Shown here: in pieces, positions 3,920 to 24,876 of the stretch
Layout: every line of letters starts with the position of its first letter
Numbering within the stretch: the first letter of the stretch is position 1
Source: a virus
Virus record (IMG/VR): IMGVR_UViG_3300005541_000019
Location: 1 to 26,905 of that record
Length of the DNA: 26,905 nucleotides
Direction: 5' to 3' (one strand)
Program-made: the position numbers and the translations under genes
The notes under the pieces: generated by a model
Seen by the model: the letters and a program-made list of their open reading frames with translations, nothing else
Told to the model about the DNA's origin: nothing
The model's database searches: none

Positions 3920-4186
3920 TCAGATCGAACCAGAGACTGTGGTCGGGCTCTGCTTGCTAACTACGTCGTTGCGCTCTTTGAGAGCCCTCGTAAGCTTCGC
4001 TCCGAACTCTGGATCAGTCTGCGCCATGTCGATGGCGGGCCCCAAAACGGTGGCGAAGTCGCCGACCATCCCCTCAATGATGTTAGAGATGGCCTTCCGC
4101 TCCGCAGCGTTCCGGGCACGGCCCAAGGCTTCCCGGTACTTCGGGTGCTCCCTCAGGCGCTTGATGAAGTCGATCTTCTCAGACAT
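3920..4186 (-). CDS. Small helical protein behind the tape measure (88 aa)
   Basis: The product begins MSEKIDFIKRLREH and is predicted mainly helical and charged. I chose ATG 4186-4184 because GAGAAG sits 6 to 8 bases upstream. A GTG two codons earlier (4192) overlaps the tape-measure stop and would place that sequence too close. The start lies 2 bases after the tape-measure stop, so translation is probably coupled. In many myoviruses a small protein between tape measure and hub genes assists tail initiation, but no family is recognised here. The last codons (VVS) contain a TAGTTA motif on the sense strand that may be the promoter of the next gene. Confidence 0.75.
   Translation of the reverse strand: MSEKIDFIKRLREHPKYREALGRARNAAERKAISNIIEGMVGDFATVLGPAIDMAQTDPEFGAKLTRALKERNDVVSKQSPTTVSGSI
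3957..3962 (-). promoter_or_regulatory. TAGTTA motif, 42 bases before ATG 3914
   Basis: TAGTTA lies inside the last codons of the 88-aa gene, upstream of the 1110-aa baseplate-type gene. It is the only exact TA(G/C/T)TTA copy in sense orientation that I found inside a coding region. Confidence 0.35.
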
Positions 4187-4188
4187 CG

Positions 4189-7100
4189 TCACTTCTCAGG
4201 AACGGTCTCGCTGAATGGAGCTGCGATCTGGGCAGCCAGTGGCGTCTGGGCTTTCTTGCCCGGGCTACGGTCGGTCGCGAATGCCAAACGATCTGCGATG
4301 ACCGACTTCGCATTGGTGATGATCGCCTTCTCCACGTCGTCCGTCCTCATCGTTACGTTGAAGCTGACATTGATGGTGACGCCCTTGTTCTCGATCGAGT
4401 AGTTGGCCTTGCCACCGAGGCCCACCGCTGAGGCGACCTTCTGCAGGTTCGCCTTGACGTTGATCTTATTCAAGTCTCCGTCAGCCAGCGCTGCGTTGAG
4501 CTTCTTGGCATTGTCGATCATGTCATTCACGGCATCGATCGCAGGCTTGATAGCCCCACCCTTCATCTTCGCCGACGCAGCCGTCAGGCTGTCGCTCATC
4601 ATCGAGAAGTTCTTCGCGGTCTCATCGACCGAGCCAAAGAGCTTGCTCAGGTTGGTGAACGTTTTCTCCGGGTCAGGCGTGCCCTTGCCACCCGTCAACA
4701 TGGCCGAGATGAGCTGGACTGAGTTCATCATCGTCGAGACCGGGTTGTCAGACGACGCACCGACGAGGCCCTTGAAGAAATCTGACACCGAAGCGACAGC
4801 CGCCAGCAATGGATTGGTGTTGGCTGCGCCGCTAGCGGGCGCGTTGGCTGACAGGTTCTGGAGACTGTCGGCCAGCTTTGGGACACCGCCGATGAAGTCC
4901 ATCAGCTTCTGGGCCTTCTCCAGGTGTGCCGTGAAGTCCTTGTCGACCGGGACCGCCGACACCATCGCCTCGACCTGCTTCATGAAGTCAGGCAGGACGG
5001 TGCCCATCTGTGTGATGACCGTGGTCAGGTCGGGCACCTGTTCCATGACCATCGTCGTCTTCTCTTTGTCGATGGTCACTGTCCCGGTGTTGCCCTTGTT
5101 TGCAGACGAGACAGCAGCGATGAAGTCGGTCGTCGACTTCATGATCACGCCGATGAGGTCGATGCCCTTCAGCTGGTCACCCTTCAGGCCCGACGCTTGG
5201 TCAAGGACCGCCTTCATGGGTCCCGTGGTGATGGCGTCGATCAACGTCTTGATGCCAGCGGCTTTTGCCCCGATGAGCTTAGCAATGTCGTCGGGTGATG
5301 CACCCTTCTTGGTGTCGTCCTTCGAGAACACGCCCCACAGGACCGACATCTTGCCGCCGCTGTCGGAGATCGTCTTCAACGTTTCGGGATCAGGAGTGAT
5401 GGCCTTGGTGACGCTGGCGATGCTGGTGAGCATGTCAGCAACGATCTTGGCCTTGCTCGGGTCCGGGATCTTGATGCCCGACAGGTCCTTTAGCAGACCC
5501 AGGACGCCGCCCTTCCCGCCTTCGCCCTCGATCATCTTCATCATCTGGGTCCGCATCGCCTCGGCATACTTGCCGACGTGGAACGTCAGGTCAGCGAACT
5601 CGACAGTCGGGTTCGCCAGCTTGTTCAGCAACCCAGTGCCAGCCTCGAAGAAAGCGTCAGGCGGCGTCATCGCCTTCATGACGTCAGCCATGGCAGTCAT
5701 GACGGTCCCGAAGATCTGCGCCGACTCGGCCATGTGAGGACCGCCGCTCTTGATCTTGCCGATCTGCTTCATGACGGTCTCGACCATGCCGACGATGCCG
5801 CCAGGCCTGCCAGACTCGCCGATCATTGTCTTGATCGCACCCTGTGCTGCGTTGATCTTGTCGGTGAACTTCTCTTCGGTGCCCGTCAGGAAGCCGACCA
5901 ACGTAGGTTGCATCAACTCGATGACCTTGACCAACGCGTCAGTGAAGGATTGGATCGCCTTCATGACGCCCAAGAAGGCGTCGATCTTGCGCTGGAACGT
6001 AGCGTCGATCGTCATCTTGTTCAGCTCTTGGACGATGCCCATCGCGACGGCTGCCATCTCAGCGACAGCGACGCCGATGACTTCCAGACCCACCGCGGCT
6101 GCTCCCAACAGGATCGCTTGCGGGCCCGAAGCCAGAGCACCGATGGCCATGGCTGCAACGATCAGGGGGACCATCGCCAGGAAGACCAGCGACATCTTCA
6201 GCATCATGGTGCCGACAGCGTCCAACATTGCAGGTGTGGTGATGAGACCCAACAGGCCTGCGATGACACCCGCGGTGACAGCGACGATGCCGACGCCCAG
6301 GGCGATGGCCAGGCCGCCCTTGATGATCTCTGAAGGCTTGCCGACCTGGGACGCCAGCTTCAAGGCCAGCATCAGGGGCACCGCGGCGACGACCAAGGCG
6401 CCCAACACCAGGATCTGTGGGAGGACGTCGGTGACCGTCAGGTCACCCATGATGGCCTTCATTGCGACGATGGCAGCGGCCATCTCAACGCCACCCACGG
6501 CGATCGCCGTGGCGATGGCGATCAGCTTGAGGCCGAGCTTGATAGCGTCCTGAGCGCCCCAGTTGCCCTTCTTGTCCTCCGCCATCACCTCGTTCTCGGC
6601 CTTGACAACGCCCTTGACGGTGCCCAACTGACCTGTAGCGCTCTCCATCCCCTTTGTGTTTGCTGCGGCCTCAGTGACCTTGGCAAACAGCTTGGGGAAC
6701 GCCTTCTTGAGGCCCGCTTCGAGCAACGTACCCGCTGCCTTGCCCAATGCCGCGGTCAGAGCGCCGATGGCCGCGCGGGTGAATGCCGGGCCGAAAAGCA
6801 AGCCTGCCACGCCAGCAAGGAGCATCTTCACCTTGCTCATCACCTCGGGCTTCTTCATGAAGTCGACGAACTTCTCCCACAGGGTGCCCGCCAGGTCCTT
6901 CAACGCGGGCAAGAAGACCGTCCAAGCTTCTTTCAACGCCTCAATGATGGGCGTCAGCATGTCTTTCAGGAAACCGAGCCCGCCAGCGATCGCGCCGCGC
7001 GCCCCGCCCATGCCTGGAACGGGCGACTCACCACGGATCATCGAGGCAACGTCGTGCATCGACTCGGCCAGCGTCTTGAAAAGGATCTTGATCGCCTCAG

Positions 7101-8946: not shown

Positions 8947-8972
8947 GCGTCACCCACCTGCAGAAAAGTAGG

Positions 8973-9266
8973 TCACAGGGGCCAGGGGACGCCCAAGATC
9001 CGCTCAAACTCCCTTGCGCTAGCGTGTTTCAGGTTCAGTTTCTGCATCACGCTCTCGACTGTGGCCCCAGGGTGGTTCAGTTCGTCCTGGAACCGCCTCG
9101 AGGCCATCATGGCGTTGGCCACAGCCTGCACCTCCTGCGGGCTGCCACGGATCTTCATGTTGACGGCTCGGCCGACCAACCAAGCCGCCGCAGCGACGAA
9201 GAAGATCTTCCCGAGCAGGTTCAGTTTCAGCTCGTTGATCGGTACCCTGGTGTCAATGTCGCTCAT
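8973..9266 (-). CDS. Small protein with one membrane-like segment (97 aa)
   Basis: The product has an N-terminal hydrophobic segment at about residues 16-33 (LLGKIFFVAAAAWLVGRAV) and then a charged helical part with MASRRFQDELNHPG and HASAREFERILGVPW. It lies between the chaperone frameshift cassette and the tape measure, a slot that sometimes holds an extra tail-assembly factor. I do not recognise the family. The ATG is preceded by TAGGGCC, with AGGG only two bases away, and by TATTTA five bases upstream, so it may be read from a leaderless transcript as well as from the upstream message. Confidence 0.75.
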   Translation of the reverse strand: MSDIDTRVPINELKLNLLGKIFFVAAAAWLVGRAVNMKIRGSPQEVQAVANAMMASRRFQDELNHPGATVESVMQKLNLKHASAREFERILGVPWPL

Positions 9267-9271
9267 GGCCC

Positions 9272-9277
9272 TAAATA
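9272..9277 (-). promoter_or_regulatory. TATTTA motif, 5 bases before ATG 9266
   Basis: TATTTA, inside CCTATTTAGG, sits in the 15-base gap between the chaperone extension and the 97-aa gene. The spacing to the ATG equals that at 24871. Confidence 0.45.
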
Positions 9278-9281
9278 GGCA

Positions 9282-9560: not shown

Positions 9561-10416
9561 GAAACGAGACCCCGATCGGCATCGAGACCTCCTCTTCGTG
9601 GCCACACGAGGGGCACGCTACCTCTTGGCGCATGATGATCCCGGGCTCGTTGTCCCGGATGTAGTTGCGCAGGGCGAGCGAGTCGCGAGCTGGCATCATG
9701 CGAACGAAGCTGGCGATCTTCGCGCGGTCCTCGGAGCCATCGACAGCCTGGATGCTGTACAGCAGGTTCGTCGTGACGCCCGTCTCGGTCTGGGACAGCG
9801 CCAGCTTCTTCTGCTTCTCCTGCATCGTGAGGATCTGCTCCTCGTCGCGGCCCGTCAGGAACTTGAACCTGACGACCTTCTTGCTCAGGGGCAGCGCGAA
9901 CTCGAACAGGTTCAGCCCAGGGCCGACCGGGTCGATCGCGAGGCGCCTGATCGGCAGCTCACCGAGGTTGAAGTTGCGTGCTGCCTTGGTGTCGCACTCG
10001 GTGCACTGCATCTCAGCGTCGTAATCGGCGCCGTAGCCGGTGATGCGGATGGCGACCATCAGGGCGTTGCGGTCACCCATCAGAAGCTCGGTCGGATCGA
10101 TGGACTTGTTGACCAAGCACGACCTGATCAGCTCGCTGATGACGGTCCCCTTCTTCAGGAGCGCCCGGCTCGTCAGGATGTCCTCCTCACGGGCAGTCAT
10201 CGACCTGATCTCCACGGTCTCGACGCCATGGAGAGGCGACTGGGACGGGTACACCTTACCTCCGCTGGGCAGTGGGACGGTCTCGACCGGGACATCGATC
10301 CCGAAATCGGCCTTGTACTTCTCTGCGGCGGTGACGCCCTGGACGCCCGGCTGGGTGAGGCTCCCCTCGGGCTTGGCCGTAAAGACCTGGTTGCGCTCTG
10401 CGCGTTCTTCAGACAT
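9538..10416 (-). CDS. gp26/gp51-like tail-assembly chaperone (292 aa)
   Basis: The sequence fits the T4 baseplate-hub assembly family (gp26/gp51, T4_baseplate). A VPLPSGGKVYP block at about 47-57 is followed by VETVEIRSMTAREEDILTS (65-83), KGTVISELIRSCLVNKSID (89-107) and a C-terminal FLWP ending typical of the family. Two CxxC pairs (C138/C141 and C268/C271) could bind one zinc ion, and T4 gp26 is shorter (about 208 residues). In relatives, proteins of this type act as chaperones for the tape measure or hub and are not always in the virion. The start is ATG 10416 with AGGAG four bases upstream, following a 77-base gap. Position between tube and tape measure supports the chaperone role, and the 3' end carries a probable frameshift signal. 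Confidence 0.85.
   Translation of the reverse strand: MSEERAERNQVFTAKPEGSLTQPGVQGVTAAEKYKADFGIDVPVETVPLPSGGKVYPSQSPLHGVETVEIRSMTAREEDILTSRALLKKGTVISELIRSCLVNKSIDPTELLMGDRNALMVAIRITGYGADYDAEMQCTECDTKAARNFNLGELPIRRLAIDPVGPGLNLFEFALPLSKKVVRFKFLTGRDEEQILTMQEKQKKLALSQTETGVTTNLLYSIQAVDGSEDRAKIASFVRMMPARDSLALRNYIRDNEPGIIMRQEVACPSCGHEEEVSMPIGVSFLWPAASR
9558..9564 (-). other. Candidate +1 ribosomal frameshift site (TTT-CTT-T)
   Basis: On the sense strand, codons 285-286 of the chaperone read TTT CTT, followed by TGG. Peptidyl-tRNA-Phe can slip from TTT to TTC, or tRNA-Leu from CTT to TTT (the same CUU-to-UUU slip used in prfB). Either enters the frame that continues to 9282. A GAGGAGG sequence lies 23 bases upstream (9588-9594), farther than usual stimulators. 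A -2 shift would give the same frame. The zero-frame stop comes six codons after the slip codon CTT. Confidence 0.55.
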
Positions 10417-10493
10417 GGTGCTCCTGTGTGATCAGACTGTATCCCCTGCCACCCAGAGCGTAAATGTAAGGATCTCAGGATCCCGGGCCGTTT
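10417..10493 (-). other. 77-base gap upstream of the chaperone gene
   Basis: The gap contains a short stem (GGATC-CTGA-GATCC, about 10471-10484), the AT-rich run CTTACATTTACG (10460-10471), a weaker relative of the TA(G/C/T)TTA motif, and the AGGAG ribosome-binding site. A promoter here is possible but less convincing than at the other gaps. Confidence 0.3.
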
Positions 10494-10700
10494 TCAGGCT
10501 TGGAACAGCGACACCTTGGCTTTTTGCTGCGGCGTCCACCGCTTGTCGATCTCGGCGAGGAACTCATCCCAGCTCCACCCGGTGAAACGCATGATGTCGT
10601 CCCACTCCTCGACGTAACGTTCCATGTTGAGGCTGCCCTGCTTCAGTTCGTCAGTGAGGTGATCGAGGATCGCCTCGAGCTGTGAAAACGGGAGCTTCAT
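10494..10700 (-). CDS. Small acidic helical protein (68 aa)
   Basis: The product starts MKLPFSQLEAILDHLTDE and continues with YVEEWDDIMRFTGWSWDEFLAEIDKRW, a Trp-rich acidic helix pair. I chose ATG 10700 because AGGA lies about seven bases upstream; a GTG two codons earlier has no such sequence. It begins 16 bases after the preceding stop. The family is not recognised. Similar small Trp/Asp-rich proteins are common in phage genomes without known function. Its place between the tube and the chaperone gives no firm clue. Confidence 0.7.
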   Translation of the reverse strand: MKLPFSQLEAILDHLTDELKQGSLNMERYVEEWDDIMRFTGWSWDEFLAEIDKRWTPQQKAKVSLFQA

Positions 10701-10716
10701 GGTCACATCCTACACT

Positions 10717-11064
10717 TCACCAGCGAGCTTTTGCAGGCGTGGGCTTCTCGACGAGCCGCCAGATGTTGGCATCGACCCGGAGCCCGTGGTCACGCAGCTC
10801 GCTGCCCGACATCAGCATCACGATGCCACGGTCCTGCATGACCTGCATCATCTCTTCGGTCCGTGCAAGGGACCACCCGATGTACAGCGAGACGGCCCCC
10901 AAGTACGTGGGGCAGGCAACCCTATGCATGTAGCCCTCGATTATTTCGAGGACGGCCTGTGGGGGCTGTTTGCCTTCTCGAAGCCACGATGCCATCTGCC
11001 CGACCACCCTTCCGGCGCGGGTGATTGCGCCGCTGATACTTAGGTTCGAAGTCGAGTTCCACAT
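10717..11064 (-). CDS. Unknown protein (115 aa) in tail operon
   Basis: The most plausible start is ATG 11064 (MWNSTSNLSISGAITRAG), five bases after the stop of the winged-helix-like gene. An upstream in-frame start at 11118 would overlap that gene by 49 bases. The product has helical segments (RVVGQMASWLRE, AVLEIIEGYMHR) and a central hydrophobic stretch (YLGAVSLYIGWSLA), then MSGSELRDHGLRVDANIWRLVEKP. No family was recognised. The tight spacing indicates cotranscription and translational coupling with its neighbour. Confidence 0.65.
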   Translation of the reverse strand: MWNSTSNLSISGAITRAGRVVGQMASWLREGKQPPQAVLEIIEGYMHRVACPTYLGAVSLYIGWSLARTEEMMQVMQDRGIVMLMSGSELRDHGLRVDANIWRLVEKPTPAKARW

Positions 11065-11069
11065 GGGCG

Positions 11070-11558
11070 TCAGGCGCCCGTGAGATGGCCGAAGAGGTCG
11101 GGGCGGGACTTGATCCACTCGTCGGCTTCTTCCGCGAGTTTCTCTCCCTCGGGGGTCAATGCATAGAGCAGCTGATTGCCCTTCTTGCCCGCGACCTTGA
11201 CGTACCCGCGTCGCATGACGCTGTAACGAGCGTTGATGCCCGTGTTGGGCACCATCGCCTCAGGCGTGCGTTGAAAGTGCCCTTCGGCGTCTTGCACCAT
11301 CTCACCGTTGGGACCGATCACCCAGTCGCTCCTCATCACCGGCGACGGAGCCCAATAGTCCTTGTTGGAACCCGGCTTGAAAGCCGTGGGGTCTTTGTCC
11401 TCGAGGGCATGGACCTTCTGCATCACCTCTGGACGGGACATGGGCTGGCCCGCTTGCGCCAGCACCCAACAGATCATGTGCGTCTTGTCATCGGGGTGAC
11501 TCCTGTCGCCGATGGCCTCGCGAAGGAGATCCTTGAGCTCTCGCAGCGTCAGTTCCAT
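11070..11558 (-). CDS. Winged-helix-like protein (162 aa), possible regulator
   Basis: The N-terminus MELTLRELKDLLREA forms an amphipathic helix and is followed by a flexible stretch. Then come THMICWVLAQAGQPMSRPEVMQKVHAL (about 27-53), which looks like a helix-turn-helix, and a C-terminal wing pattern: YSVMRRGYVKVAGKKGN then LLYALTPEGEKLAEEA (about 111-145). The 'YxLTPEGxxLA' ending is typical of winged-helix DNA-binding domains. A DNA-binding role is inferred and not proven. Directly upstream are a TAGTTA motif six bases from the ATG and a 130-base structured gap. No Shine-Dalgarno sequence is near the start, so a leaderless transcript is possible. It could regulate late genes, or be a structural protein that reuses the fold. 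Confidence 0.75.
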   Translation of the reverse strand: MELTLRELKDLLREAIGDRSHPDDKTHMICWVLAQAGQPMSRPEVMQKVHALEDKDPTAFKPGSNKDYWAPSPVMRSDWVIGPNGEMVQDAEGHFQRTPEAMVPNTGINARYSVMRRGYVKVAGKKGNQLLYALTPEGEKLAEEADEWIKSRPDLFGHLTGA

Positions 11559-11564: not shown

Positions 11565-11570
11565 TAACTA
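11565..11570 (-). promoter_or_regulatory. TAGTTA motif, 6 bases before ATG 11558
   Basis: TAGTTA (extended to TAGTTATAG) stands six bases before the winged-helix-like gene, after the double-hairpin end of the tube message. No ribosome-binding site is close to the ATG. Confidence 0.5.
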
Positions 11571-11591: not shown

Positions 11592-11616
11592 CAATCCCCG
11601 CGTGGAGCGGGGATTG
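11592..11616 (-). terminator. Perfect 10-bp stem-loop after tail tube
   Basis: CAATCCCCGC and GCGGGGATTG form a perfect 10-bp stem around a 5-base loop. It begins 72 bases past the tube stop on the sense strand. The sequence after the stem (TCGTCTCT) is only moderately T-rich, so this could be a weak intrinsic terminator or a 3'-end stabiliser that raises tube mRNA levels. Confidence 0.5.
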
Positions 11617-11688: not shown

Positions 11689-12177
11689 TCAGAACTGCAG
11701 GACGGCGTTGTCGAAGCGCAGCGTCAGGCTGATCTCAGCCAGGGTGCCGTCTTCGTAGGTGAGCTCGCCGAAGTTCGCTTCGGTGATCCAGGCGCCCTTG
11801 ACGTCCCAGAGCTCGACGACAGTGCCGACGGGGTCCAGGAGCTTGAGCTGGATGTCACGCTTGTAGAAGTCGGCGTAGCCAGCACGGCCCGACACTGTCT
11901 CCAGGGTCAGGCGGATCCACTCCATGACCTGCTGCGCGCCCGAGGGAGCGATGGGGTCGTAGAGGGTCACCGCGAGGGTGTTGAACTTCGTCAGACCGGC
12001 AAGGTACCGACGGAAGTTGATGAAGGGGACCTCGACCTCCTCGGTGGTCACCGTGGGTCGCGCAGTCGTCTTCATGATGTACGCATCGATGCCCTCGATC
12101 ATGAGCACCCAGCGGTTCTTCCGCTTGGGCTCAAACTTGTTGGGCAGCATTGACGTTACGTCGAGTGTCTCAGCCAT
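11689..12177 (-). CDS. Tail tube protein (gp19-like, 162 aa)
   Basis: The product matches the gp19 tail-tube family in length (T4 gp19 is 163 residues) and pattern. It has RKNRWVLMIEGIDAYIMKTT (about 19-38), VTTEEVEVPFINFRRYLAG (42-60), TLAVTLYDPIAPSGAQQVMEWI (66-87) and a C-terminal ELTYEDGTLAEISLTLRFDNAVL typical of the hexameric tube fold. Tube hexamers stack around the tape measure to form the DNA channel and are enclosed by the sheath. Translation starts at ATG 12177 with an ACAGGAG ribosome-binding site and a TAGTTA motif 28 bases upstream. The gene is followed by two hairpins, consistent with high-level expression. Only one tube gene is visible although two sheath genes are present. 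Confidence 0.93.
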   Translation of the reverse strand: MAETLDVTSMLPNKFEPKRKNRWVLMIEGIDAYIMKTTARPTVTTEEVEVPFINFRRYLAGLTKFNTLAVTLYDPIAPSGAQQVMEWIRLTLETVSGRAGYADFYKRDIQLKLLDPVGTVVELWDVKGAWITEANFGELTYEDGTLAEISLTLRFDNAVLQF

Positions 12178-12205: not shown

Positions 12206-12211
12206 TAACTA
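12206..12211 (-). promoter_or_regulatory. TAGTTA motif upstream of tail tube
   Basis: TAGTTA lies 28 bases before the tube ATG, beginning immediately after the TGA of the 105-aa gene. An ACAGGAG ribosome-binding site follows it. Confidence 0.5.
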
Positions 12212-15900: not shown

Positions 15901-16153
15901 TGAGGTAGGTGAGGGCCTGCGCGTTGCGCAGCCACTCCGTGACCGCCAGGGGACCGAACTTCTTGCCGTCAGTGACGCCGAACTTCAGGTAGAAGTCATT
16001 GACGACTGCCATCGTGATGGGGACGAACGCCGGTCCCTTGACCGACACACCGATGACGCCCGCGGGAGTACCGACCGGCTGCGCTGCCAGGGGCTGCGAC
16101 TGATCGATCTCGGTGGCGGTGACTCCGGGTGCGCCGAACTTGAGCTGTGCCAT
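12965..16153 (-). CDS. Tail sheath protein B (1062 aa)
   Basis: The N-terminus has VGTPAGVIGVSVKGPAFVPI (about 27-46) and a KFGVTDGKKFGPLA segment typical of contractile sheath proteins. The C-terminal core has HPWFAPAGF near 888, GQKTLQQAASALDRVNVRRL near 947 and a final block ending LEYVSLDFVVTN. T4 gp18 is 659 residues, so about 400 extra residues form inserted surface domains. The middle contains SQPFGGKV, LEQFRGLSLNP and LYWGVQFEHV, all shared with the neighbouring paralog. A Ser/Gly-rich segment (about 515-550) carries a five-residue SGSYS repeat encoded by a 15-base tandem repeat. The start is ATG 16153, with AGAGG nine bases upstream and a TACTTA motif 20 bases upstream. Sheath contraction drives the tube through the cell envelope. 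Confidence 0.95.
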   Translation of the reverse strand: MAQLKFGAPGVTATEIDQSQPLAAQPVGTPAGVIGVSVKGPAFVPITMAVVNDFYLKFGVTDGKKFGPLAVTEWLRNAQALTYLRVLGVGQGQARQSLAGQPQGPNGATGGVTGAGWTVGEQEPDPSNFGELSPNPYANTDGPPGRAYFLGCFMSESAGSTIFSSAGIQGSSTSGSCVPIVRGLIMAASGVVLTLSSSVAGVSSLAPSSLAVGNDSNGASVGDLTLFAGSIAKQDFVLFLNGLQGTNPLFPNVITASFDLTSPNYIANVLNTDPDNLQQAGHYLYLHYDIHPATAAPTGSGLINSGEGAGASTAHNPGSELAAFILTSSLARDVGSVTVPDYEDFRDRFEHAKSPWVVSQPFGGKVHNLFRVHALDDGTGVSTMYKLSIENPSLSTDPSNQYGTFDLVVRQWGDNDGAPVYLEQFRGLSLNPGDTQYIAQVIGDANNFFDFDRGPTAQKLVVDGNYPNASNYIRIEVDPSVDAGELDPTALPVGLRGVHHLVTAGGCLAQPVDFEQGSGSYSSGSYSSGSIISGTFVPTGSFIPSGIFTSGTGSVQWASQVVEPPLPLRQNVTQGTGAKLQVNPLLYWGVQFEHVTALATPNLSTLPNQSLQAFADFLPEFRTDVQDVRVGDNNGAPPVNGAIIDADRFNYNLFSLMNVQVVTNSTGIADPTNWQYASYVRNGNIPVQQPNPSIGNGTYGTRALEPSDFVQANRRFLKWSFLVQGGFDGTNLFDADERQITNTAVEDDMNASNRGFNLGSSVSAYNTALGIMSDVTAVDIELLAVPGIRHPVVTDAALSACEQRFDCMSLMDLEQFDNNDELVVEDSQMPSVTYTVQNFLERSVNSSFGAAYFPDVVMTDPNAGNNLYVPPSVVVLGALALNDAVGHPWFAPAGFTRGALQTTLEARVKLSKANMDTLYDANINPLVAFPGNASGGTNPKGGVVVWGQKTLQQAASALDRVNVRRLLIEIRRQVRDIANTILFEQNRDATLAAFSAAVTPVLQKIQAQAGLERFKVVIDSSTTTQLDIQNNTIRGKIFVQPTKSLEYVSLDFVVTNNISQQV
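14571..14596 (-). repeat. 15-base tandem repeat in sheath B
   Basis: The 11-base unit gagctgtacga occurs at 14571-14581 and 14586-14596 (period 15) on the plus strand. It encodes repeated Ser-Gly-Ser-Tyr-Ser in the surface-insert region of sheath B. It is a short in-frame repeat that could change length by slippage. Confidence 0.6.
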
Positions 16154-16173
16154 CTCCTATTGCCTCTGCGCTG

Positions 16174-16179
16174 TAAGTA
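16174..16179 (-). promoter_or_regulatory. TACTTA motif upstream of sheath B
   Basis: TACTTA lies 20 bases before the sheath B start in a 109-base gap, downstream of a hairpin and a near-palindrome. Confidence 0.5.
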
Positions 16180-16186
16180 TCGGGTC

Positions 16187-16205
16187 GATGCGCACATGCG
16201 CCATC
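16187..16205 (-). promoter_or_regulatory. Near-palindrome upstream of sheath B
   Basis: GATGCGCACATGCGCCATC pairs with itself except for one extra base (GATG, CGCA, a central CA/TG, TGCG, CATC). It lies just upstream of the TACTTA motif in the 109-base gap before sheath B. It could be an operator or a 5' mRNA hairpin; no known binding site was recognised. Confidence 0.35.
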
Positions 16206-16233
16206 GAAAGGAAACCGCCCAGGATCTGCGCTA

Positions 16234-16252
16234 GGCCCCTAGGTACGGGGCC
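16234..16252 (-). terminator. Hairpin after sheath A
   Basis: GGCCCC and GGGGCC make a perfect 6-bp stem around a 7-base loop, starting 10 bases after the sheath A stop. There is no clear T-run, so it may be a weak terminator or an mRNA-stabilising end. Confidence 0.45.
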
Positions 16253-16262
16253 CAGTTTTGGC

Positions 16263-19200
16263 TCACACGAACTGGACACCGCTGTTCGTGATGATGAAGT
16301 CGATCGCAATGAACTCGACCACTCGGGTCGGGACCACGACGATGCGGCCGTTCATCTTGTACTGGTCGACATCCGTCTGCGTGTTGTTCGTCGAGTTGCA
16401 GATGACCTGGAAGGCCTCGATGCCCGCCTGGGTCTGAATCAGGCTCAGCTGCAGGGCTGCCTGCGCCGTGAACTTGTTCTGGGTATCGGGCGTGTTCTGC
16501 TCGAACTCCAGGGTCAGGGCGATGTTGCTGATGATGCGCTTGATCTCCAGCAACAGGCGGCGGACGTTGACGCGGTCCAACGCCGAGGACGCGGCCTGCA
16601 GGGTCTTCTGTCCGAAGATGACGAAGCCCTGGCGGGGGAACGTTGCGATCGGGTTGATGCGGCTGGTGTACAGCGTGTCGCGGTCTGCCGAGTTGAGGCG
16701 GACAGCCACATTGGTGACGAAGTCCAGCGCTGCCCGGTTGAAGCCCGCGGGGGCGAACCAGGGGTAGCCGATCTTGTCGTTGAAGCTGAGGGCGCCCATT
16801 GCCGCGATCGATGATGGGACCTTGACGCGCCGGTTGTTGACGGTGTCCTGGATGAAGACGTCGGGGAAGTAGGTGCCGATGTAGTTGTTGTCGATGGCCC
16901 GGGTGTTGAGGCCGACGGCCGACTGATCAACGTCGGGGCGAACCGTGTCGTTGTCGAACAAGCGGTTCTGGTTCTCGTCGTAGCTCTCGAGGTCCATGAC
17001 GTAGAAGGCCAGGCCGTAGGTGCGGACGCTCTGGCCGGCGTAATCGGTCAGGAAGGGCTCGCGGATGCCCGGGATGCAGAGGATGTTGTGGTTCACCTGC
17101 ATCGGGTCCGTCATGATGTTGATGGCGGCGACGTAGGAGGCCACGTTCGAGTTGCTCTGGCCCGTGCCGTTCTCGTTGGTGGCGAAGCCAGGCGGGATGA
17201 AGCCCGGGAAGGCGCCGCCAGTGTCGCCCAACAGGTTGTCATCGAACGACGTGGACTTGTCGTTCATGCGCCGAGCGTCCGGGTCCAGGAAGTTCAGGCC
17301 GTCCCAGCCGCCAGCCAGGAAGGTGGTGAACTTCAGGTAGGTCGCGAAGCGGTTGAACTGCTGTGGGGTGCCCTTGGCCAGCAGCGTGGCGAAGGTCATG
17401 CGGTTCATCAGCAGGGTTGGGTCAGCGTAGGTGTACGAAGAGCCGTCCAGCTGAGCGTTGCGGATGTAGGCCGACTCCTTCATCGTCGTGTCGACCGACG
17501 AGGTGAGTCCCTGCACCAGGAAGGTGTTGAGGTCCGTCAGGAAGGCCACCTTGGCCAGCGTGAACTTGTCATCGTTGAACTGGTCTGCACCAGCGCCGGT
17601 GACGAAGGTGTCGATGCTCGGTGCGCCCAAGAACTGGGTGTAGGCACTGAGCAGCTGGTTCGGCAGCGTCTCGATGTTCGGGTTGAGCGGGATGTCCAGG
17701 CGCTCGAACTGCACGCCCCAGTACAGCGGCGGGTATGCGAGCTCGCTTGCACCCGGCTCACCGAACCACACTGCAGGTGACGGGCGGTTGCCCTTGGTCA
17801 CCTTGGTGCGGAAGGGCACCGGGGGCAGGATGGCGCCAGAGAGCGCCGTCTGCGGGCCCGAGCCGGTCAGAGCACCCGACAGGCGGACGACGTTCGGGGT
17901 CACCGTGGCGTCCTTCAGGCTGTCGTTGGTCTTCAGCAGGCTGGCGCCGCGGAAGCCGAAAGGCAGTGCCGTCGCCGGGACGACCTGGCTGTAGACCTGG
18001 TCAGTCGGCAGCACGCGGATGTAGGCCGACTGGTTCGGGTACTTGCCCGATGCGACGACACGCTTCTCGGCGTTCAGCGTCGAGTCGAAGTTGTAGAAGA
18101 CCTTGCGATCGCCGATGACGGCACCGATGAAGTTCGCAGCCGTCGGGTCCAGGCTCAGGTTGTTGAACTGCTCCAGGACGTTCGGGTTGATGTCGGTGTC
18201 GTCCCAGCTGCGGACCTGCAGCGAGAAGGTGCCGTACAGGTAGTTCTGCGTCGTCGACGCCTGCAGGTTGACGATGCTGATCTTGTAGAGGTTGTTGGCG
18301 TACTGGCCATCGTCCAGCGCCTCGATGCGGAACAGGTCGTATTCGACCTTGCCGAAGGGCTGGCTGATGAATGCCGTCGTTGACGGGGTCTGGTACCGCG
18401 CGTCGAAGGCACCGAATGAAGCCCGGTACGAAGTGTCGTCGTTGTAGGGAGCGCCCGTGTAGGACAGGTCCGGGTTGACGAGGCTGTGGTTGGTCGAGCC
18501 CGACACCACGCCGACGACGTTGCCCGCCTCGACAGATGCGATTTCATCGTCGACGGCGAAGTCAGCGTAGTACAGGTGCTGTGCCGAGAGGAAGTTGTCG
18601 GGGTTGCTGTTCAGCAGCTTTCCAACGTAGTTCTTGTCGTCCGGGTTGAGTGACGCCGTCAGGATGTGGCAGCCTGCGTTGCCGTCATCGTTGTAGAAGG
18701 CGGAACCGAGCGAAGAGCTGATGATCAGCTTGACGTAGGGGGTCGAGCCTTGGGCAACACCGAAGTCTGCCAGGGTGTCGATGTGTCCGGGCTTCCAGGT
18801 GTCAGCCAGGCCGTCAGCGATGATCATCCGGGCCGTGTTCGGCATGAGCACCATGCCGCGGACCAGGTGGGCCACACCGCCCGAGAAGCTGTCGTTGTCA
18901 GTGAAGATAGCTGCACCGAAAGCCTCATCAGGCTGCACTGTGTGCTGAGCAACCAGGAACTGGACCGTGCCGTTGACGATCCTGCTTGAGGGGGTCGGGA
19001 CACCCTGGGTGACGTTGCCATTCAGGTGGAAGCCCGCGTTGACGGTGCGACCCGTGTCCAGCGTGCGCTGGATGTCAGTGCCCGTGGCGTTGGCACCTGC
19101 TCCCAGCATGCGCAGGAAGGTCAGTGCCGACCTGTTGGCCAGGAAGTAGAAGGCCGCGTAGGGACCGAAGCGGTTGGGGTCCAGGGTGCCGAAGACAGCG

Positions 19201-19370
19201 TTGAACTGGTCGAAGTTGCCGACGGTGATCGGCACGAAGGCCGGGCCGCGGTTGGACGTCCCGATGACTCCCGCGGGCACACCAACAGGCCCCTGCGGTG
19301 CGGGGGCCGAAAGGTCGATCTCCCGGTCATAGAAGTTTGGGGACTGAAAGGTCTGCAGCGTCTGCGGCAT
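16263..19370 (-). CDS. Tail sheath protein A (1035 aa)
   Basis: The protein has N-terminal VGVPAGVIGTSNRGPAFVPI (about 29-48) and FGTLDPNRFGPYAAFYFLANR. The C-terminal sheath core has YPWFAPAGFNRAAL near 868, GQKTLQAASSALDRVNVRRL near 920 and a final block ending VEFIAIDFIITN. These match contractile tail sheaths of the gp18 type, but it is about 375 residues longer than T4 gp18. The extra middle region carries SQPFGKVEYDLFRIEALDDG (about 332), LEQFNNLSLDP and LYWGVQFERL, all with counterparts in sheath B, so the two genes are tandem duplicates that have diverged. A good ribosome-binding site (GAGGAG) precedes the ATG. The upstream gap holds two inverted repeats and a TACTTA motif. Confidence 0.95.
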   Translation of the reverse strand: MPQTLQTFQSPNFYDREIDLSAPAPQGPVGVPAGVIGTSNRGPAFVPITVGNFDQFNAVFGTLDPNRFGPYAAFYFLANRSALTFLRMLGAGANATGTDIQRTLDTGRTVNAGFHLNGNVTQGVPTPSSRIVNGTVQFLVAQHTVQPDEAFGAAIFTDNDSFSGGVAHLVRGMVLMPNTARMIIADGLADTWKPGHIDTLADFGVAQGSTPYVKLIISSSLGSAFYNDDGNAGCHILTASLNPDDKNYVGKLLNSNPDNFLSAQHLYYADFAVDDEIASVEAGNVVGVVSGSTNHSLVNPDLSYTGAPYNDDTSYRASFGAFDARYQTPSTTAFISQPFGKVEYDLFRIEALDDGQYANNLYKISIVNLQASTTQNYLYGTFSLQVRSWDDTDINPNVLEQFNNLSLDPTAANFIGAVIGDRKVFYNFDSTLNAEKRVVASGKYPNQSAYIRVLPTDQVYSQVVPATALPFGFRGASLLKTNDSLKDATVTPNVVRLSGALTGSGPQTALSGAILPPVPFRTKVTKGNRPSPAVWFGEPGASELAYPPLYWGVQFERLDIPLNPNIETLPNQLLSAYTQFLGAPSIDTFVTGAGADQFNDDKFTLAKVAFLTDLNTFLVQGLTSSVDTTMKESAYIRNAQLDGSSYTYADPTLLMNRMTFATLLAKGTPQQFNRFATYLKFTTFLAGGWDGLNFLDPDARRMNDKSTSFDDNLLGDTGGAFPGFIPPGFATNENGTGQSNSNVASYVAAINIMTDPMQVNHNILCIPGIREPFLTDYAGQSVRTYGLAFYVMDLESYDENQNRLFDNDTVRPDVDQSAVGLNTRAIDNNYIGTYFPDVFIQDTVNNRRVKVPSSIAAMGALSFNDKIGYPWFAPAGFNRAALDFVTNVAVRLNSADRDTLYTSRINPIATFPRQGFVIFGQKTLQAASSALDRVNVRRLLLEIKRIISNIALTLEFEQNTPDTQNKFTAQAALQLSLIQTQAGIEAFQVICNSTNNTQTDVDQYKMNGRIVVVPTRVVEFIAIDFIITNSGVQFV

Positions 19371-19404: not shown

Positions 19405-19406
19405 GA

Positions 19407-19412
19407 TAAGTA
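19407..19412 (-). promoter_or_regulatory. TACTTA motif upstream of sheath A
   Basis: TACTTA lies 36 bases before the sheath A start, directly after the hairpin that follows the gp15-like gene. It leaves room for a leader with an inverted repeat and a GAGGAG ribosome-binding site. Confidence 0.5.
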
Positions 19413-19413
19413 C

Positions 19414-19427: not shown

Positions 19428-19442
19428 AAAGACCAGTTACGG

Positions 19443-20774: not shown

Positions 20775-20785
20775 GGGTCAGTGTC

Positions 20786-21469
20786 TCACTGGTTGTCGGG
20801 GTCGTCTTCGTCATAGAACGCACTGTCGCTCTCGAACTCGCCTCCCTTCTGGGAGACCTCCTTGGCGCCAGTGATTGGCTTGTCTAGGACGTCGGGCGTC
20901 TGCAAGTCCCGGATGTCGCCGGTGACGCCCTCCTTGTTGTGCTCCTGGCCTCGCTGCTGGTAGAACGTCGTCTGCACTGCGTCCTTCTCGGGGCGGCTGA
21001 TGTCGGTGGGCCCGATGGTGAGCGCCTTGAACTGCGTCTCGCGGGACTTGATGCCGATCAGCTTGACGCCGTCCTTGTGCTCGGGCATGCCGTAGATGTT
21101 GCGCATGAAGACCTTCTCGGTCACCTCGTAGAAGACATCAGAAAAGGAGAAGAAGTCGCCGATGGCGGGTTGGATGCCCTTGTCGACCAGGTCACGCCAC
21201 TGCAGGTAGGCCTCGATCTTGAACTGTGCATCGACGCCGAACGCCGTGGTCTTGGTGTCAGCTTGGAAGTGGGTGTCCACCAACGCATCCAGCGCGATGG
21301 GCGCGTCAAAGACCTTCTTCAGGGCCTCGTTGTAGACCAGGTCCACCTTCGTCTTGTTCTCGTTGATGGCGTAGTAGTAGATCTTCTGGCCCACCACGTC
21401 CTTGATGAGCTCCTTGGTGATGTCCGAGATGAAGTTGAACTCTCGGGGTGTGAGGTACAAGCGTCCCAT
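20786..21469 (-). CDS. Neck protein, probably gp14-like (227 aa)
   Basis: The sequence has an N-terminal helical part (FISDITKELIKDVVGQKIYYYAI), then the block IGDFFSFSDVFYEVTEKV (about 102-119) with YGMPEHKDGVKLIGIKSRETQF. This resembles the 'GDxxxFxxxxxEVxxV' core of T4 gp14-type neck proteins that close the head portal and receive the tail. The last 45 residues are acidic and probably disordered. T4 gp14 is 256 residues. The gene sits between a gp13-like candidate and the gp15-like gene, matching T4 order 13-14-15. GAGGTGA lies four bases before the ATG. Equivalence is inferred from pattern and position. Confidence 0.75.
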   Translation of the reverse strand: MGRLYLTPREFNFISDITKELIKDVVGQKIYYYAINENKTKVDLVYNEALKKVFDAPIALDALVDTHFQADTKTTAFGVDAQFKIEAYLQWRDLVDKGIQPAIGDFFSFSDVFYEVTEKVFMRNIYGMPEHKDGVKLIGIKSRETQFKALTIGPTDISRPEKDAVQTTFYQQRGQEHNKEGVTGDIRDLQTPDVLDKPITGAKEVSQKGGEFESDSAFYDEDDPDNQ

Positions 21470-21477
21470 GTGTCACC

Positions 21478-22722
21478 TCATCCGAAAATGATCGCCTTGC
21501 CGCCCGGGATGGCGGTGTAGCGTAGCATCTTCTGCATAGCATCGGCGATGTTCGCCTGTGCCTCCAACAGCTTCTCGTAGGTCAGCTTGTCCAGGAACTC
21601 CTTGAGGTTGGTCATCAGCTTCTCCTGGTCTGCACGTGCCTGCTCGATGAGCTCGGCGCCATTCAGCTGCAGGTCAGCGTTCGGGATCGGGATGACCTTG
21701 AACTTGTTGCGGTTGAGGCCCAGCACCTCGCGGGCCAGCGCCAGCGCGTACTGCCTGATCCACTGCCTGCCGGGCGTGGTGATGGTGCTGTAGGGCAGGA
21801 TGCTGAAGGGCACGTTCTCAGGGCCGCTGATGCCGTAGATGCTGTCGTCCTCGTAGGCCGGGTCGAACACGCTTTGGGGCGTGAAGACGCGGACGTAGAG
21901 GTTGCCCAGGCCGTAGGGGCCCGTGCCCGCCTGCAGGTTATCGTACGACTGGGGCTGCGGAAAGATGCGGACTTTGCTGCCGATGACCTGGTACGAGTAG
22001 TTCGACCTGCGCACCCGAAACGCCTCCTTCAGCATGCCGCGACGGACGACGTCCTCAAAGACAGGCAGCACGTAGAACACGGTGCTGTTGACGTATGACT
22101 CATAGTTGAAGTTGGTGGCCAAGAAGTTGGTGATGTTCGATGCATTGAGCAGGAACGTCTGTGCCGCCAACGGCTCGAAGTGGAAGACCTCCATGACGCG
22201 GAGCTTGCCCTTCGATCCCGTCGGGAGCGTGTCGACCACCAGGCCCAGGTCGGGAGATCCCGTCGTAGCAGTGAAGGACAATGGGTCGAAGTTGACCGTC
22301 GCGTGGAGCTCGGTGTAGAGGTCGTAGTCCTGCTTGCCCGGCACCAGCTCGAAGAAGCCGAGGGTGTAGTCGTAGTTGCCACCCACGTAGGAGGCCTGCG
22401 CGTAAGCGTCGGCCAGGCGGAACAAGAAGTCCAGGTTCTGCTGCGGGTACTTGTTGGTGAGGTCCGTGGTGCCCGTGGGCTGGCCTAGGACGTTGGCAAG
22501 CTGGCTGACGATCTTCAGCTCTTGGATCAGGCGGCCGTACTCGAGAGTCGCCTGCTCCAGGCAGGTCCAGATCTCCTTCTTGGTCAGCTCAACGCTCAGG
22601 ACGTCGTCGCCCAGCATCCGCTTGACGAACGTGACCATGGCATCAGCTTCGACCTGGAATGTACCGTCCGTGTCGAAGAAGCCAAACGAGGTGGGGCCGA
22701 CTGTCTGGTTGAAGTTGGGCAT
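21478..22722 (-). CDS. Neck / head-completion protein, possibly gp13-like (414 aa)
   Basis: The N-terminal segment FVKRMLGDDVLSVELTKKEI and following WTCLEQATLEYGRLI (about 32-66) matches a pattern I associate with head-completion and neck proteins ('LGxPxxxVELTxxxIxxaxxxAxxEY'). The middle is beta-rich, with GKLRVMEVFHFEP and VIGSKVRIFPQP. The C-terminus is helical (WIRQYALALAREVLG, and a long helix near 365-405). T4 gp13 is 309 residues, so this form is larger. Synteny with the gp14-like and gp15-like genes supports a neck role. Its start lies in a 52-base divergent region shared with the plus-strand fibre gene. TAGTTA occurs 15 bases upstream and no strong ribosome-binding site is seen. 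Confidence 0.7.
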   Translation of the reverse strand: MPNFNQTVGPTSFGFFDTDGTFQVEADAMVTFVKRMLGDDVLSVELTKKEIWTCLEQATLEYGRLIQELKIVSQLANVLGQPTGTTDLTNKYPQQNLDFLFRLADAYAQASYVGGNYDYTLGFFELVPGKQDYDLYTELHATVNFDPLSFTATTGSPDLGLVVDTLPTGSKGKLRVMEVFHFEPLAAQTFLLNASNITNFLATNFNYESYVNSTVFYVLPVFEDVVRRGMLKEAFRVRRSNYSYQVIGSKVRIFPQPQSYDNLQAGTGPYGLGNLYVRVFTPQSVFDPAYEDDSIYGISGPENVPFSILPYSTITTPGRQWIRQYALALAREVLGLNRNKFKVIPIPNADLQLNGAELIEQARADQEKLMTNLKEFLDKLTYEKLLEAQANIADAMQKMLRYTAIPGGKAIIFG

Positions 22723-22737
22723 AGCGGGGTCCAGAGG

Positions 22738-22743
22738 TAACTA
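22738..22743 (-). promoter_or_regulatory. TAGTTA motif, 15 bases before ATG 22722
   Basis: This is the outward-facing minus-strand copy in the divergent region that serves the neck gene. Confidence 0.5.
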
Positions 22744-22761
22744 TGGCCCGGGGGATCCACC

Positions 22762-22767
22762 TAGTTA
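22762..22767 (+). promoter_or_regulatory. TAGTTA motif, 7 bases before ATG 22775
   Basis: This is the outward-facing plus-strand copy in the divergent region and the only candidate promoter for the plus-strand fibre gene. No Shine-Dalgarno sequence lies between it and the ATG. Confidence 0.55.
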
Positions 22768-22774
22768 TGGTGCG

Positions 22775-24202
22775 ATGTCGCTCACTCAATTCATGAGCAT
22801 GTCCCTCCCGATCGTTGGAGTGACCCCTGGAGGTGGCTCTGGCAACAGCTGGGGCCCGTTGCTGACCACGTCGTTGGGCCAGATCGACGTCCATGACCAC
22901 AGCCCGGGCAAGGGCGCTCCCCTGGTGATGACCAGCGGCTCCTTCAAGGTCGCCACCGACCTGGGCTTTGCAGGTCACAGCCTGTTCGCTGTTGACAACA
23001 TCCAAGCCATCGGACAGATCACCGCCTTGGGCCTGACGGGCAGCCTGACACAGATCATCGTCAGTGCCAGCTTCTCAGGCACGTTCTCCAGCGGCACCCT
23101 GAGCGGCAGCACTTTCCTCCCGACGGGCAGCTTCACCCCACTCAGCCTCTACTCAGCGTCTTACGCCGCTGCATTCGTCGGCGTCGGCGGCATCCAGGTG
23201 TTGACCAACTCGTTCGGCCAAGTGCTGATCAGCGGCACTGTGGGTGACGACCGCTACGCTTCGTTCATCCTGGCACAGCCCGATGCTGAGGACCCAAACT
23301 ACCGTGTCATCACCGGTTCGGGCGGCACCTCGCTCATCGACGGTGGAGCGGGCGGCTTCATGACCGTCAGCAGCTCCATCGGCGCAGGCCGGGACGCGGC
23401 GTTCGTCTTGACTGCAACCGCCGATGGCCGAGCGCCCAACGCCCGGACCATCACGGGTTCGGGTGGCGTCAGCGTCATCGACGGTGGCCCAGGCGGCAAC
23501 CTGACTGTCTCGGGTTCATTCCCACAGATCAGCAACCTGTCAGGCCTGGGCGGCACCGTCGTCACGCCCAACGGCAGCCTCTACACTGTGTCGTCAAGCG
23601 CACCCCCGTGGACCAGCATCCAGGGCCAGGGCGGCACTTCAGTGTCGATCACCGGTGCAACTGTCATCGTCTCGTCTTCTGCGCCGTTGTACAACGACTT
23701 CTATGGCATCGGTGGCATCTCGGTCACCCCGACGGCAGGTCAGCTGCAGATCTCGGGCTCACAGCCCACCATCAGCAACCTGAGCGGCACCGCGGGCATC
23801 ATCGTCACACCCAACGGCAGCCTGTACCTGCTCTCGCAATCGTTGCCTCCACCCAACTATGTCACCGCGTTGGCTGGGACCCAGTCTGGTGTCTCAACGG
23901 CACAGGTCACCGCTCCCAACATCACCAAGTTGAAGAATGGTGTCGTTGAACTCAATGGCATGCTCGTCGTCAACCCGACGATGACCGAGTCGGGTTCAGC
24001 CCAGTTGTTCCGCGACTCAACACCGATCGGACCGAGCCAGCAACTGATGATGTCTGTCCAGTCACCCAAGCTGTTCATCATCAGCTGGATCGATGTCCTA
24101 CCCGACTCGAGCTCACACGCCTACAGCTTGCAGGTCAGTGGCACCCTAAGCACCTTCATGGTCCAGGCGGGCCAGGGCAGCATCACCGCCAAAGAGAGCT
24201 GA
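22775..24202 (+). CDS. Repeat-built tail fibre-like structural protein (475 aa)
   Basis: This is the only plus-strand gene. I chose ATG 22775 because a TAGTTA motif sits seven bases upstream; the frame stays open further upstream but overlaps the minus-strand neck gene. Residues 36-48 have IDVHDHSPGKGAP, a signature common near the N-terminus of phage fibres. Residues 90-125 are Ser/Gly/Thr-rich. From about 135 to 356 there are seven degenerate 20- to 23-residue repeats of the form 'xGxGGxxVxxxxGxxxVSxS', two pairs being nearly identical (ITGSGG...IDGG and SNLSG...VTPNGSLY). The C-terminal 100 residues form a separate, beta-rich domain. Host recognition is likely but inferred. The stop abuts the stop of the opposing gene with no spacer. 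Confidence 0.85.
   Translation: MSLTQFMSMSLPIVGVTPGGGSGNSWGPLLTTSLGQIDVHDHSPGKGAPLVMTSGSFKVATDLGFAGHSLFAVDNIQAIGQITALGLTGSLTQIIVSASFSGTFSSGTLSGSTFLPTGSFTPLSLYSASYAAAFVGVGGIQVLTNSFGQVLISGTVGDDRYASFILAQPDAEDPNYRVITGSGGTSLIDGGAGGFMTVSSSIGAGRDAAFVLTATADGRAPNARTITGSGGVSVIDGGPGGNLTVSGSFPQISNLSGLGGTVVTPNGSLYTVSSSAPPWTSIQGQGGTSVSITGATVIVSSSAPLYNDFYGIGGISVTPTAGQLQISGSQPTISNLSGTAGIIVTPNGSLYLLSQSLPPPNYVTALAGTQSGVSTAQVTAPNITKLKNGVVELNGMLVVNPTMTESGSAQLFRDSTPIGPSQQLMMSVQSPKLFIISWIDVLPDSSSHAYSLQVSGTLSTFMVQAGQGSITAKES
23311..23842 (+). repeat. Protein-level repeat array in the fibre gene
   Basis: The array encodes six of the seven 'GxGG...V...VSxS' repeats of the fibre protein (residues about 179-356). The units beginning at about 23527 and 23771 share long stretches of DNA, including atcagcaacctg and cccaacggcagcct. 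This points to duplication of coding units, and recombination between them could change fibre length. Confidence 0.6.
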
Positions 24203-24865
24203 TCACTTGCCGCCGCGGACGAACGAGCGAGCCAGCTCTTTGATGAGCTCCTCTCCCTCCACGACTGCAGGGCCGCCAGCGCCTCGTTGAGCGTAGCGCT
24301 CTTTCAATGTGGTCGCCGACTTGGGCTTCGTGACGGGAGTCGGGATCCTAGGAGCGAAAGGACGCTTCGCAGCGGGCTTCTGCTCAACCGGTTTCGGTTG
24401 GACAGGCACTGGGGTCGATCGCTCGATGACGAGGGGCTTGGGTTGTACAGGAGGCTGGGGTGCGACGCTCTTGCGGTTGACAACGACGGGTGCTGACGCA
24501 GTCACCGACACGCGAGGTAGCTCCTTCTTCGCCGGGACCCGGATCGCCTCAGCAACGACCTTGACGGCCTGCTTGAGGTTGATGTTGAACTGGACAGGTG
24601 CAAAGTAGCGGTTCTCGATCAGGACCTCAACGCGAGACAGGTACTGACCCTCCTTGAACCGACCCTTCAGGATGGGCAGCACGAACTGCACCACGCCCTC
24701 CTCTGAGGTCGGGTTGCCGCCGAACATGTGGGCGAGCTCAGGGCTCTCCTCCATGACCAGCCTGACCTTGGCAGGCGCCTGGTCGATGCCCTCGACCCGG
24801 ACCTTGAACAGGAGCTCGTTGGCCTCCTCGATGTCGAGGTCAATCGTCTCCAGCATCGGCTCCAT
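24203..24865 (-). CDS. Virion-associated protein with Pro-rich linker (220 aa)
   Basis: Residues 1-110 look like a beta-sandwich: LLFKVRVEG, AKVRLVMEE, AHMFGG, GVVQFVLPIL, SRVEVLIENRYFAPVQF and VKVVAEAI. From memory this 'ENRYFxPVxF...VxAE' pattern occurs in structural proteins of large T4-like phages, with no function I can name safely. Residues about 110-185 are Pro/Lys/Val-rich (VPVQPKPVEQKPAAKRP) and likely extended, and a short C-terminal helix follows (EELIKELARSFV). The start has a TAGTTA motif five bases upstream and no Shine-Dalgarno sequence. The stop abuts that of the plus-strand fibre gene. Confidence 0.75.
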   Translation of the reverse strand: MEPMLETIDLDIEEANELLFKVRVEGIDQAPAKVRLVMEESPELAHMFGGNPTSEEGVVQFVLPILKGRFKEGQYLSRVEVLIENRYFAPVQFNINLKQAVKVVAEAIRVPAKKELPRVSVTASAPVVVNRKSVAPQPPVQPKPLVIERSTPVPVQPKPVEQKPAAKRPFAPRIPTPVTKPKSATTLKERYAQRGAGGPAVVEGEELIKELARSFVRGGK

Positions 24866-24870
24866 GGGTC

Positions 24871-24876
24871 TAACTA
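24871..24876 (-). promoter_or_regulatory. TAGTTA motif, 5 bases before ATG 24865
   Basis: TAGTTA (sense strand) lies in the 13-base gap before the Pro-rich virion protein, which lacks a Shine-Dalgarno sequence. If used as a -10 type element, the transcript would start at or near the ATG. Confidence 0.5.

Follow-up and report, generated by a model that had tools for sequence, protein, structure and literature searches.

The virus record IMGVR_UViG_3300005541_000019, a stretch of 26,905 bases with 62% guanine plus cytosine (GC) that is called the window hereafter, carries a six-base box, TA(G/C/T)TTA, in front of nine of its genes. With a probability of roughly 0.8, we read this box as the late promoter of an uncultured lineage of T4-related jumbo phages, which would be recognized by a sigma factor of the gp55 type and would represent a variant of the T4 type. 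A first-pass annotation of the window had already proposed a phage-specific promoter that, like the late promoters of T4, consists of a -10-like box only. This proposal is supported by the conserved positions of the box, the lack of a -35 element, the virion genes downstream and the fact that 7 of 16 long relatives encode a sigma factor of this gp55 type.

The box in the window

Both strands of the window together hold ten matches to TA(G/C/T)TTA (TABTTA), whereas dinucleotide shuffles gave a mean of 1.38 and a maximum of 5, and none of 100 shuffles reached ten. Nine of the ten copies are in sense orientation to the next gene, the lone plus-strand gene included, at 5, 5, 6, 7, 15, 20, 28, 36 and 43 nucleotides (nt) before the start codon. 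The nine copies and their orientation thus stand as first described; of the distance range given then, 5 to 42 nt, the lower end is correct and the upper end measures 43 nt. The orthologue counts listed below refer to TANTTA in sense orientation within 60 nt before the start. The upstream regions came from 153 loci and were selected for at least 40% identity, an alignment that starts no later than the third residue and a start codon within seven codons, with near-identical regions dropped.

3958-3963, minus strand: TAGTTA, 43 nt before the start at 3914; box in 1/1 orthologue with an aligned start
9272-9277, minus strand: TATTTA, 5 nt before the start at 9266, no Shine-Dalgarno sequence, predicted leaderless; box in 8/8 orthologues
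11565-11570, minus strand: TAGTTA, 6 nt before the start at 11558, predicted leaderless; exact box in 2/4 orthologues
12206-12211, minus strand: TAGTTA, 28 nt before the tail tube gene (start 12177), with AGGAG after the box; box in 69/77 deduplicated orthologous upstream regions
16174-16179, minus strand: TACTTA, 20 nt before tail sheath gene 1 (start 16153); box in 51/61 orthologues
19407-19412, minus strand: TACTTA, 36 nt before tail sheath gene 2 (start 19370), with AGGAG after the box; box in 14/14 orthologues
22738-22743, minus strand: TAGTTA, 15 nt before the head-tail adaptor-like gene (start 22722), one arm of a divergent pair; box in 23/23 orthologues
22762-22767, plus strand: TAGTTA, 7 nt before the lone plus-strand gene (start 22775), divergent from the preceding box with 18 bp in between
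24871-24876, minus strand: TAGTTA, 5 nt before the start at 24865, no Shine-Dalgarno sequence, predicted leaderless; box in 4/5 orthologues

The tenth copy, TACTTA at 11037-11042 on the plus strand, lies inside a 653-nt gap (10416-11070) with no called plus-strand gene downstream. The box at 11565-11570 follows, after about 25 bases, a GC-rich inverted repeat (11596-11612, seen by eye), which is perhaps the terminator of the preceding unit.

Conservation and enrichment in relatives

Relatives were collected from IMG/VR with the tail tube protein (at least 583 encoding stretches, of which the best 80 were kept) and with the protein of sheath gene 1 (best 80 of 103 stretches). The contigs compared belong to divergent uncultured jumbo phages, range from AT-rich to GC-rich and reach 369 kb. 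The long ones include G001 (369 kb), G002 (127 kb), G003 (216 kb), G004 (309 kb) and the AT-rich G005, all of which may be fragments.

The box is kept at orthologous positions far more often than controls would give. Against the 69 sense boxes before the tube gene stand 18 in antisense and 12 in shuffled sequences; the corresponding controls are 4 and 8.4 for sheath gene 1, 0 and 1.4 for sheath gene 2, and 5 and 2.6 for the gene starting at 22722. Operon-internal genes rarely have the box: it was found before 0/7 orthologues of the gene at 12529, 0/5 at 12951, 4/28 at 20774, 5/31 at 21469 and 0/3 at 25774. Hence, the box marks the first genes of transcription units.

As the window comprises just 26,905 bases, the genome-wide enrichment proposed in the first-pass annotation, together with a ranking of motifs before gene starts, was run only on relatives. 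A simple caller based on codon usage supplied the genes, and all hexamers in non-coding pre-start stretches were ranked. The outcome was positive in these five long relatives. TACTTA ranks first in G001 (25 sense and 5 antisense copies, 1.2 expected) and in G004 (21 sense, 2 antisense, 1.3 expected) and fourth in G003, while TAGTTA and TACTTA take ranks 1 and 2 in G002 (19 sense and 2 antisense together). The signal is weakest in G005, where TATTTA ranks fifth (24 sense and 4 antisense copies); the antisense count of TAATTA is uninformative there, since this word is palindromic. Taking the window and G001-G004 together, 145 of 845 pre-start stretches contain the box, compared with a mean of 13.7 and a maximum of 21 in shuffles. 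The late region of T4, used as a positive control, returned TTATAA, TATAAA and TAAATA at ranks 1, 4 and 8. Microcystis phage Mel-JY01, the best isolate match by tube protein (45%), shows no clear TANTTA enrichment (TATTTA 22 sense and 15 antisense; TACTTA 2, TAGTTA 1). Over whole records, TACTTA was no commoner than its reversed control in 7 of 8 cases; as these counts are flat and the pre-start counts are enriched, the signal is positional.

These counts bear on the simplest alternative, namely that chance or base composition pushes AT-rich, stop-containing hexamers into gaps. In principle, TAG and TAA are excluded from coding frames and such words should therefore gather between genes. However, TACTTA has no stop on the sense strand, antisense copies are few in the very same gaps (25 against 5 in G001, 19 against 2 in G002), and shuffles yield a tenth of the box count. 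Orthologue conservation and the pre-start ranking likewise contradict chance, and we give this explanation virtually no credence.

Two probable promoter classes in the same genomes

Neither the 51 TANTTA sites at 4-7 nt from a start nor the 92 others have any position above 0.25 bit upstream of -2, so the missing -35 element of the first-pass annotation is borne out at near and far sites alike. An internal control is provided by a second class of starts in G001-G004 (loci L154-L190 and L290-L305): the 201 starts with TANNNT 4-7 nt upstream have a -35 element at 0.7-1.1 bits. The conserved blocks of this class are GTGNAA, about 18 bp upstream of the box, and GTGG, which directly precedes TANNNT; TAGGAT is the commonest box.

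The two classes precede different kinds of genes. For the TANTTA class, 58 of 63 proteins from G001 and G002 were scanned (five G002 copies were left out), and they match 33 PHROG families; among the 25 listed, 17 are virion or lysis families, one is an endonuclease and seven are unnamed. For the TANNNT class, a random 62 of 104 proteins match 44 families, and the 25 listed include no virion or lysis family, but an epimerase, nucleases, a primase, a kinase, a nudix protein and others. Judged from gene content only, this is a split between late (TANTTA) and early or middle (TANNNT) genes.

An ordinary host sigma-70 box with a chance resemblance to the motif would have the position and orientation observed, which are those of a -10 box. 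It is nonetheless a very unlikely explanation: the TANNNT class is separate, has a clear -35 element and stands before other kinds of genes, whereas TANTTA has no -35 element and carries an A where that class has T.

The comparison of orthologues also disposes of the looser versions (TACTTT, CATTTA) that had been grouped with the box. Their letters are present, but TANTTA is kept in 0/7 orthologues of the TACTTT site before 8946 and in 0/1 orthologue of the site before 26306. At the CATTTA before 10416, exact TANTTA occurs in 11/54 orthologues, compared with 9.7 in shuffles. By eye, this CATTTA belongs to a TTTAC block which, in many orthologues, is followed after about 17 bp by a TANNNT-like box (window 10417-10480). 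The baseplate hub gene thus probably has its own promoter of the sigma-70 type, made up of the TTTAC block and the TANNNT-like box.

Distance to the start codon

In the window and G001-G004, the distance between box and start codon has a sharp peak: the gap is 5 nt at 22 of 145 starts and 6 nt at 21, and a gene caller that ignores Shine-Dalgarno sequences gives practically the same numbers (23 and 22). Distances of 9 to 13 nt account for at most two starts each, and beyond them the values are spread out. Boxes at 5-6 nt number 45, versus 1.1 in shuffles. If the geometry of T4 applies, where the box ends at -6, transcription of a gene with a 5-nt gap would begin with the A of ATG; the spike at 5-6 nt is consistent with transcripts predicted to start about one helical turn downstream of the box. 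Late genes with a near box are therefore predicted, from their sequence, to give leaderless mRNAs. With its boxes 4-7 nt from starts, the TANNNT class suggests that leaderless expression is pervasive among early or middle genes too.

A Shine-Dalgarno sequence accompanies 6 of 56 near sites and 61 of 78 far sites (13 nt or more). Part of this contrast follows from geometry, as a box spanning -11 to -6 covers the positions where a Shine-Dalgarno sequence would lie; the contrast is thus a consistency check and no independent proof. Among 615 reciprocal-best pairs with aligned N-termini, 466 are box-less on both sides, 61 are far-far and 19 near-near; seven switch between near and far (in only two gene families) and 15 involve the middle class.

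The 45 copies at 5-6 nt might also be taken as a translation or mRNA signal beside the start codon instead of a promoter. Such a signal is hard to reconcile with the 78 of 145 copies that lie at 13 nt or more, 61 of them with a Shine-Dalgarno sequence in addition, and with the operon-internal genes at 12529, 12951 and 25774, none of whose orthologues has the box. We consider it extremely unlikely.

Candidate sigma factors

The gp55-type protein family phrog_234, which includes T4 gp55, is represented in 7 of 16 long IMG/VR records (E 3e-9 to 9e-6). These first seven members have 242-306 residues and a conserved C-terminal part that is absent from T4 gp55. In a sigma region 2 test of a gp55-like protein, the best phrog_234 match has E 6e-8. 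Another family tried as a second sigma model, phrog_12791, matched T4 only and was discarded. An AlphaFold model of a gp55-like protein (mean predicted local distance difference test score 75, predicted template modelling score 0.41) superimposes on the T4 gp55 chain of an open promoter complex (7d7c_F) with Z 10.2 and 4.3 Å over 124 of 137 residues, although many sigma factors match it too. Foldseek alone returned mostly sigma factors, with E values of 0.02 and above that are individually not significant, and a sigma profile run against the sequences of solved structures gave no match.

Several gp55-like C-termini read FRLF, FKLF, KFDLF or similar, as compared with a hydrophobic-acidic clamp-binding segment; those of G006 and G010 do not, and other rows end early. 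At least ten tube or sheath contigs have a gp55-like partner in the same metagenome (e.g. 3300035696, 3300005607, 3300047160 and 3300033063). The GC contents of ten partner pairs agree within 1 to 4 points in eight cases, the outliers being 6.5 and 18 points. In three relatives scanned for neighbours (L198, L203 and L204), the gene immediately upstream of the gp55-like one encodes a glycosyltransferase. Mel-JY01 has a related sigma factor (E 4e-28).

Bases and residues compared with T4

For the comparison, positions were numbered with the box ending at -6; the letters of TANTTA were fixed by the search and -12 was free. An A occupies -12 in 147 of 168 orthologous sites, followed by T-11, A-10, N-9, T-8, T-7 and A-6. 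The box is thus ATANTTA at -12 to -6, compared with ATAAATA in T4, whose box spans -13 to -6 (PMC1524935). Positions -9 and -8 differ and -13 is not conserved. As ATANTTA departs from the consensus TATAAATA, we regard it as a variant, not as the T4 consensus itself. The first-pass annotation called the box different from that of T4, but it missed the kinship between the two and the frequent leaderless distance.

In T4 gp55, A-12 stacks on Y97, A-9 touches N13 and H95, and A-8 bonds T99 (PMC7892883). The alignment of the gp55-like proteins with T4 gp55 is ungapped over T4 residues 69 to 124, and the residues at H95, Y97 and T99 are F, Y and N in all seven first members. The same is true for 36/36 of a larger set, from which we chose to leave out 12 of 48 rows. 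In Mel-JY01 the T99 position is S, not N.

These findings are in agreement with a mechanism in which the host RNA polymerase core and a phage gp55-type sigma factor would read ATANTTA at -12 to -6 without a -35 element, and transcription would start about 6 nt after the box. The gp55 positions for -9 and -8 would have changed (H95 to F, T99 to N), while Y97, which holds A-12, would have been kept. About a third of late genes would start at the ATG or a base or two off, producing a leaderless mRNA, and the leader of most other late genes would be short and include a Shine-Dalgarno sequence. The phage of the window is expected to carry such a sigma gene as well. We lean, less firmly, towards the more specific idea that the two pocket changes re-tuned a gp55-family sigma factor to ATANTTA, and that, in a widespread jumbo-phage lineage, early and late promoters alike are tightly coupled to start codons, leaving a large share of genes leaderless.

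A number of observations weigh against recognition by a gp55-type factor or against a uniformly conserved box. The window (26.9 kb) holds no sigma gene, and the phrog_234 search found no match in 9 of 16 long relatives, including the box-bearing G002 and G003, though these records may be fragments. The gp55-like protein of a relative and T4 gp55 are only 15% identical in alignment, and the Z of 10.2 is below about 13, the tool's safe threshold for helical proteins. The T4 clamp family phrog_223 matched only T4 among 13 records and none of the 12 relatives. A near or far box is found on one side only in 47 of the 615 reciprocal-best pairs, and A at -12 is present in only 4 of the nine sites of the window. 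Finally, an RpoD-like sigma factor with a Sigma70_r2 domain (E about 1e-22 to 1e-25), which could read the box, is encoded in 8 of 12 long relatives. Four copies with a strong region 2 are:

G001, 33359-34165: RpoD-like sigma factor
G003, 203227-204063: RpoD-like sigma factor
G004, 282424-283227: RpoD-like sigma factor
G005, 78902-79735: RpoD-like sigma factor

The box could then be a late promoter whose reader is this RpoD-like factor and not the gp55-like one. The eight relatives include G003 and G009, where a gp55-like gene was not found, and the protein ends shortly after region 4 begins in all four copies read, so it might work without a -35 element. However, its -10-reading stretch FSTYATWWIKQAI resembles that of primary sigma factors, which read TANNNT, and the T at position six is missing from TANTTA. 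The TANNNT class of the same genomes suits the RpoD-like factor better; the factor may read those promoters, with the -35 block left to a partner. We therefore regard it as an unlikely reader of TANTTA and retain the gp55-like protein as the predicted one.

Relation to other promoter systems

The T4 late promoter (TATAAATA), which works with gp55, gp33 and the gp45 clamp (PMC2988020, PMC1524935, PMC7892883), shares with the box described here the single -10-like element without a -35, the bases A-12, T-11, A-10, T-7 and A-6, the location before virion genes, a gp55-type sigma factor (in 7/16 relatives) and the key tyrosine. It differs in that -9 is open here (C, G, T and some A), -8 is T, and F and N stand in place of H95 and T99. 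In addition, the sigma factor has a longer C-terminal part, a T4-type clamp was undetected and leaderless spacing is common. The Aeh1 late promoter (CTAAATA; PMC1524935) is likewise a T4-type late box that changed alongside a diverged gp55, but its change is at -12, whereas the changes here are at -9 and -8.

Leaderless genes of Deinococcus-Thermus (PMC12340547) also have a box a few bases from the start codon and no Shine-Dalgarno sequence. That box is the bacterial TANNNT, whereas here a phage box of other sequence occurs next to a TANNNT class in the same phages. The late promoters of phiKZ and AR9 (PMC5312081) are also late and specific to jumbo phages, but they have other motifs and are read by phage RNA polymerases. 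An RpoB-type polymerase gene (PF00562) was not found in any of 13 records (12 relatives, which may be fragments, and T4), while all 14 control genomes were positive. The search for a single-subunit RNA polymerase (PF00940) gave no match, and as its controls were silent too, it is uninformative. The titles and abstract openings available in open PubMed Central, on the topics of TATAAATA, gp55 and jumbo phages, include no paper on a TACTTA or TAGTTA phage promoter motif.

Tail genes and affiliation of the window

The window encodes two sheath proteins, a tube, a baseplate hub, a wedge and a head-tail adaptor, and by these tail genes it falls close to T4-type contractile phages. The genes behind five of the boxes are:

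11689-12177, minus strand: tail tube gene (late); phrog_4542, E 3e-29; PF06841 above cut-off
12965-16153, minus strand: tail sheath gene 1 (late), 1062 residues; phrog_23, E 2e-51
16263-19370, minus strand: tail sheath gene 2 (late), 1035 residues; phrog_23, E 2e-48
21478-22722, minus strand: head-tail adaptor Ad2-like gene; phrog_211, E 4e-10
22775-24202, plus strand: lone plus-strand gene, Gly/Ser-rich; no family match

The two sheath genes (12965-19370) are neighbours yet diverged, each encoding more than 1000 residues. A DNA search of a phage collection with the window gave no match and no close isolate. As for the host, WhiB, a sign of an actinobacterial host, was found in 0/13 records, and contigs in metagenome-assembled genomes led to three such genomes named after unrelated groups.

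Implications

The box extends T4-type late transcription, at the strength given above, to a large lineage of uncultured jumbo phages. The bases of the promoter and the residues that contact them appear to have changed together, which makes the specificity of gp55 testable base by base. In practical terms, the box helps to call late genes and to fix start codons in metagenomic phage contigs. Furthermore, the predicted leaderless late mRNAs would inform on translation in the hosts of these phages.

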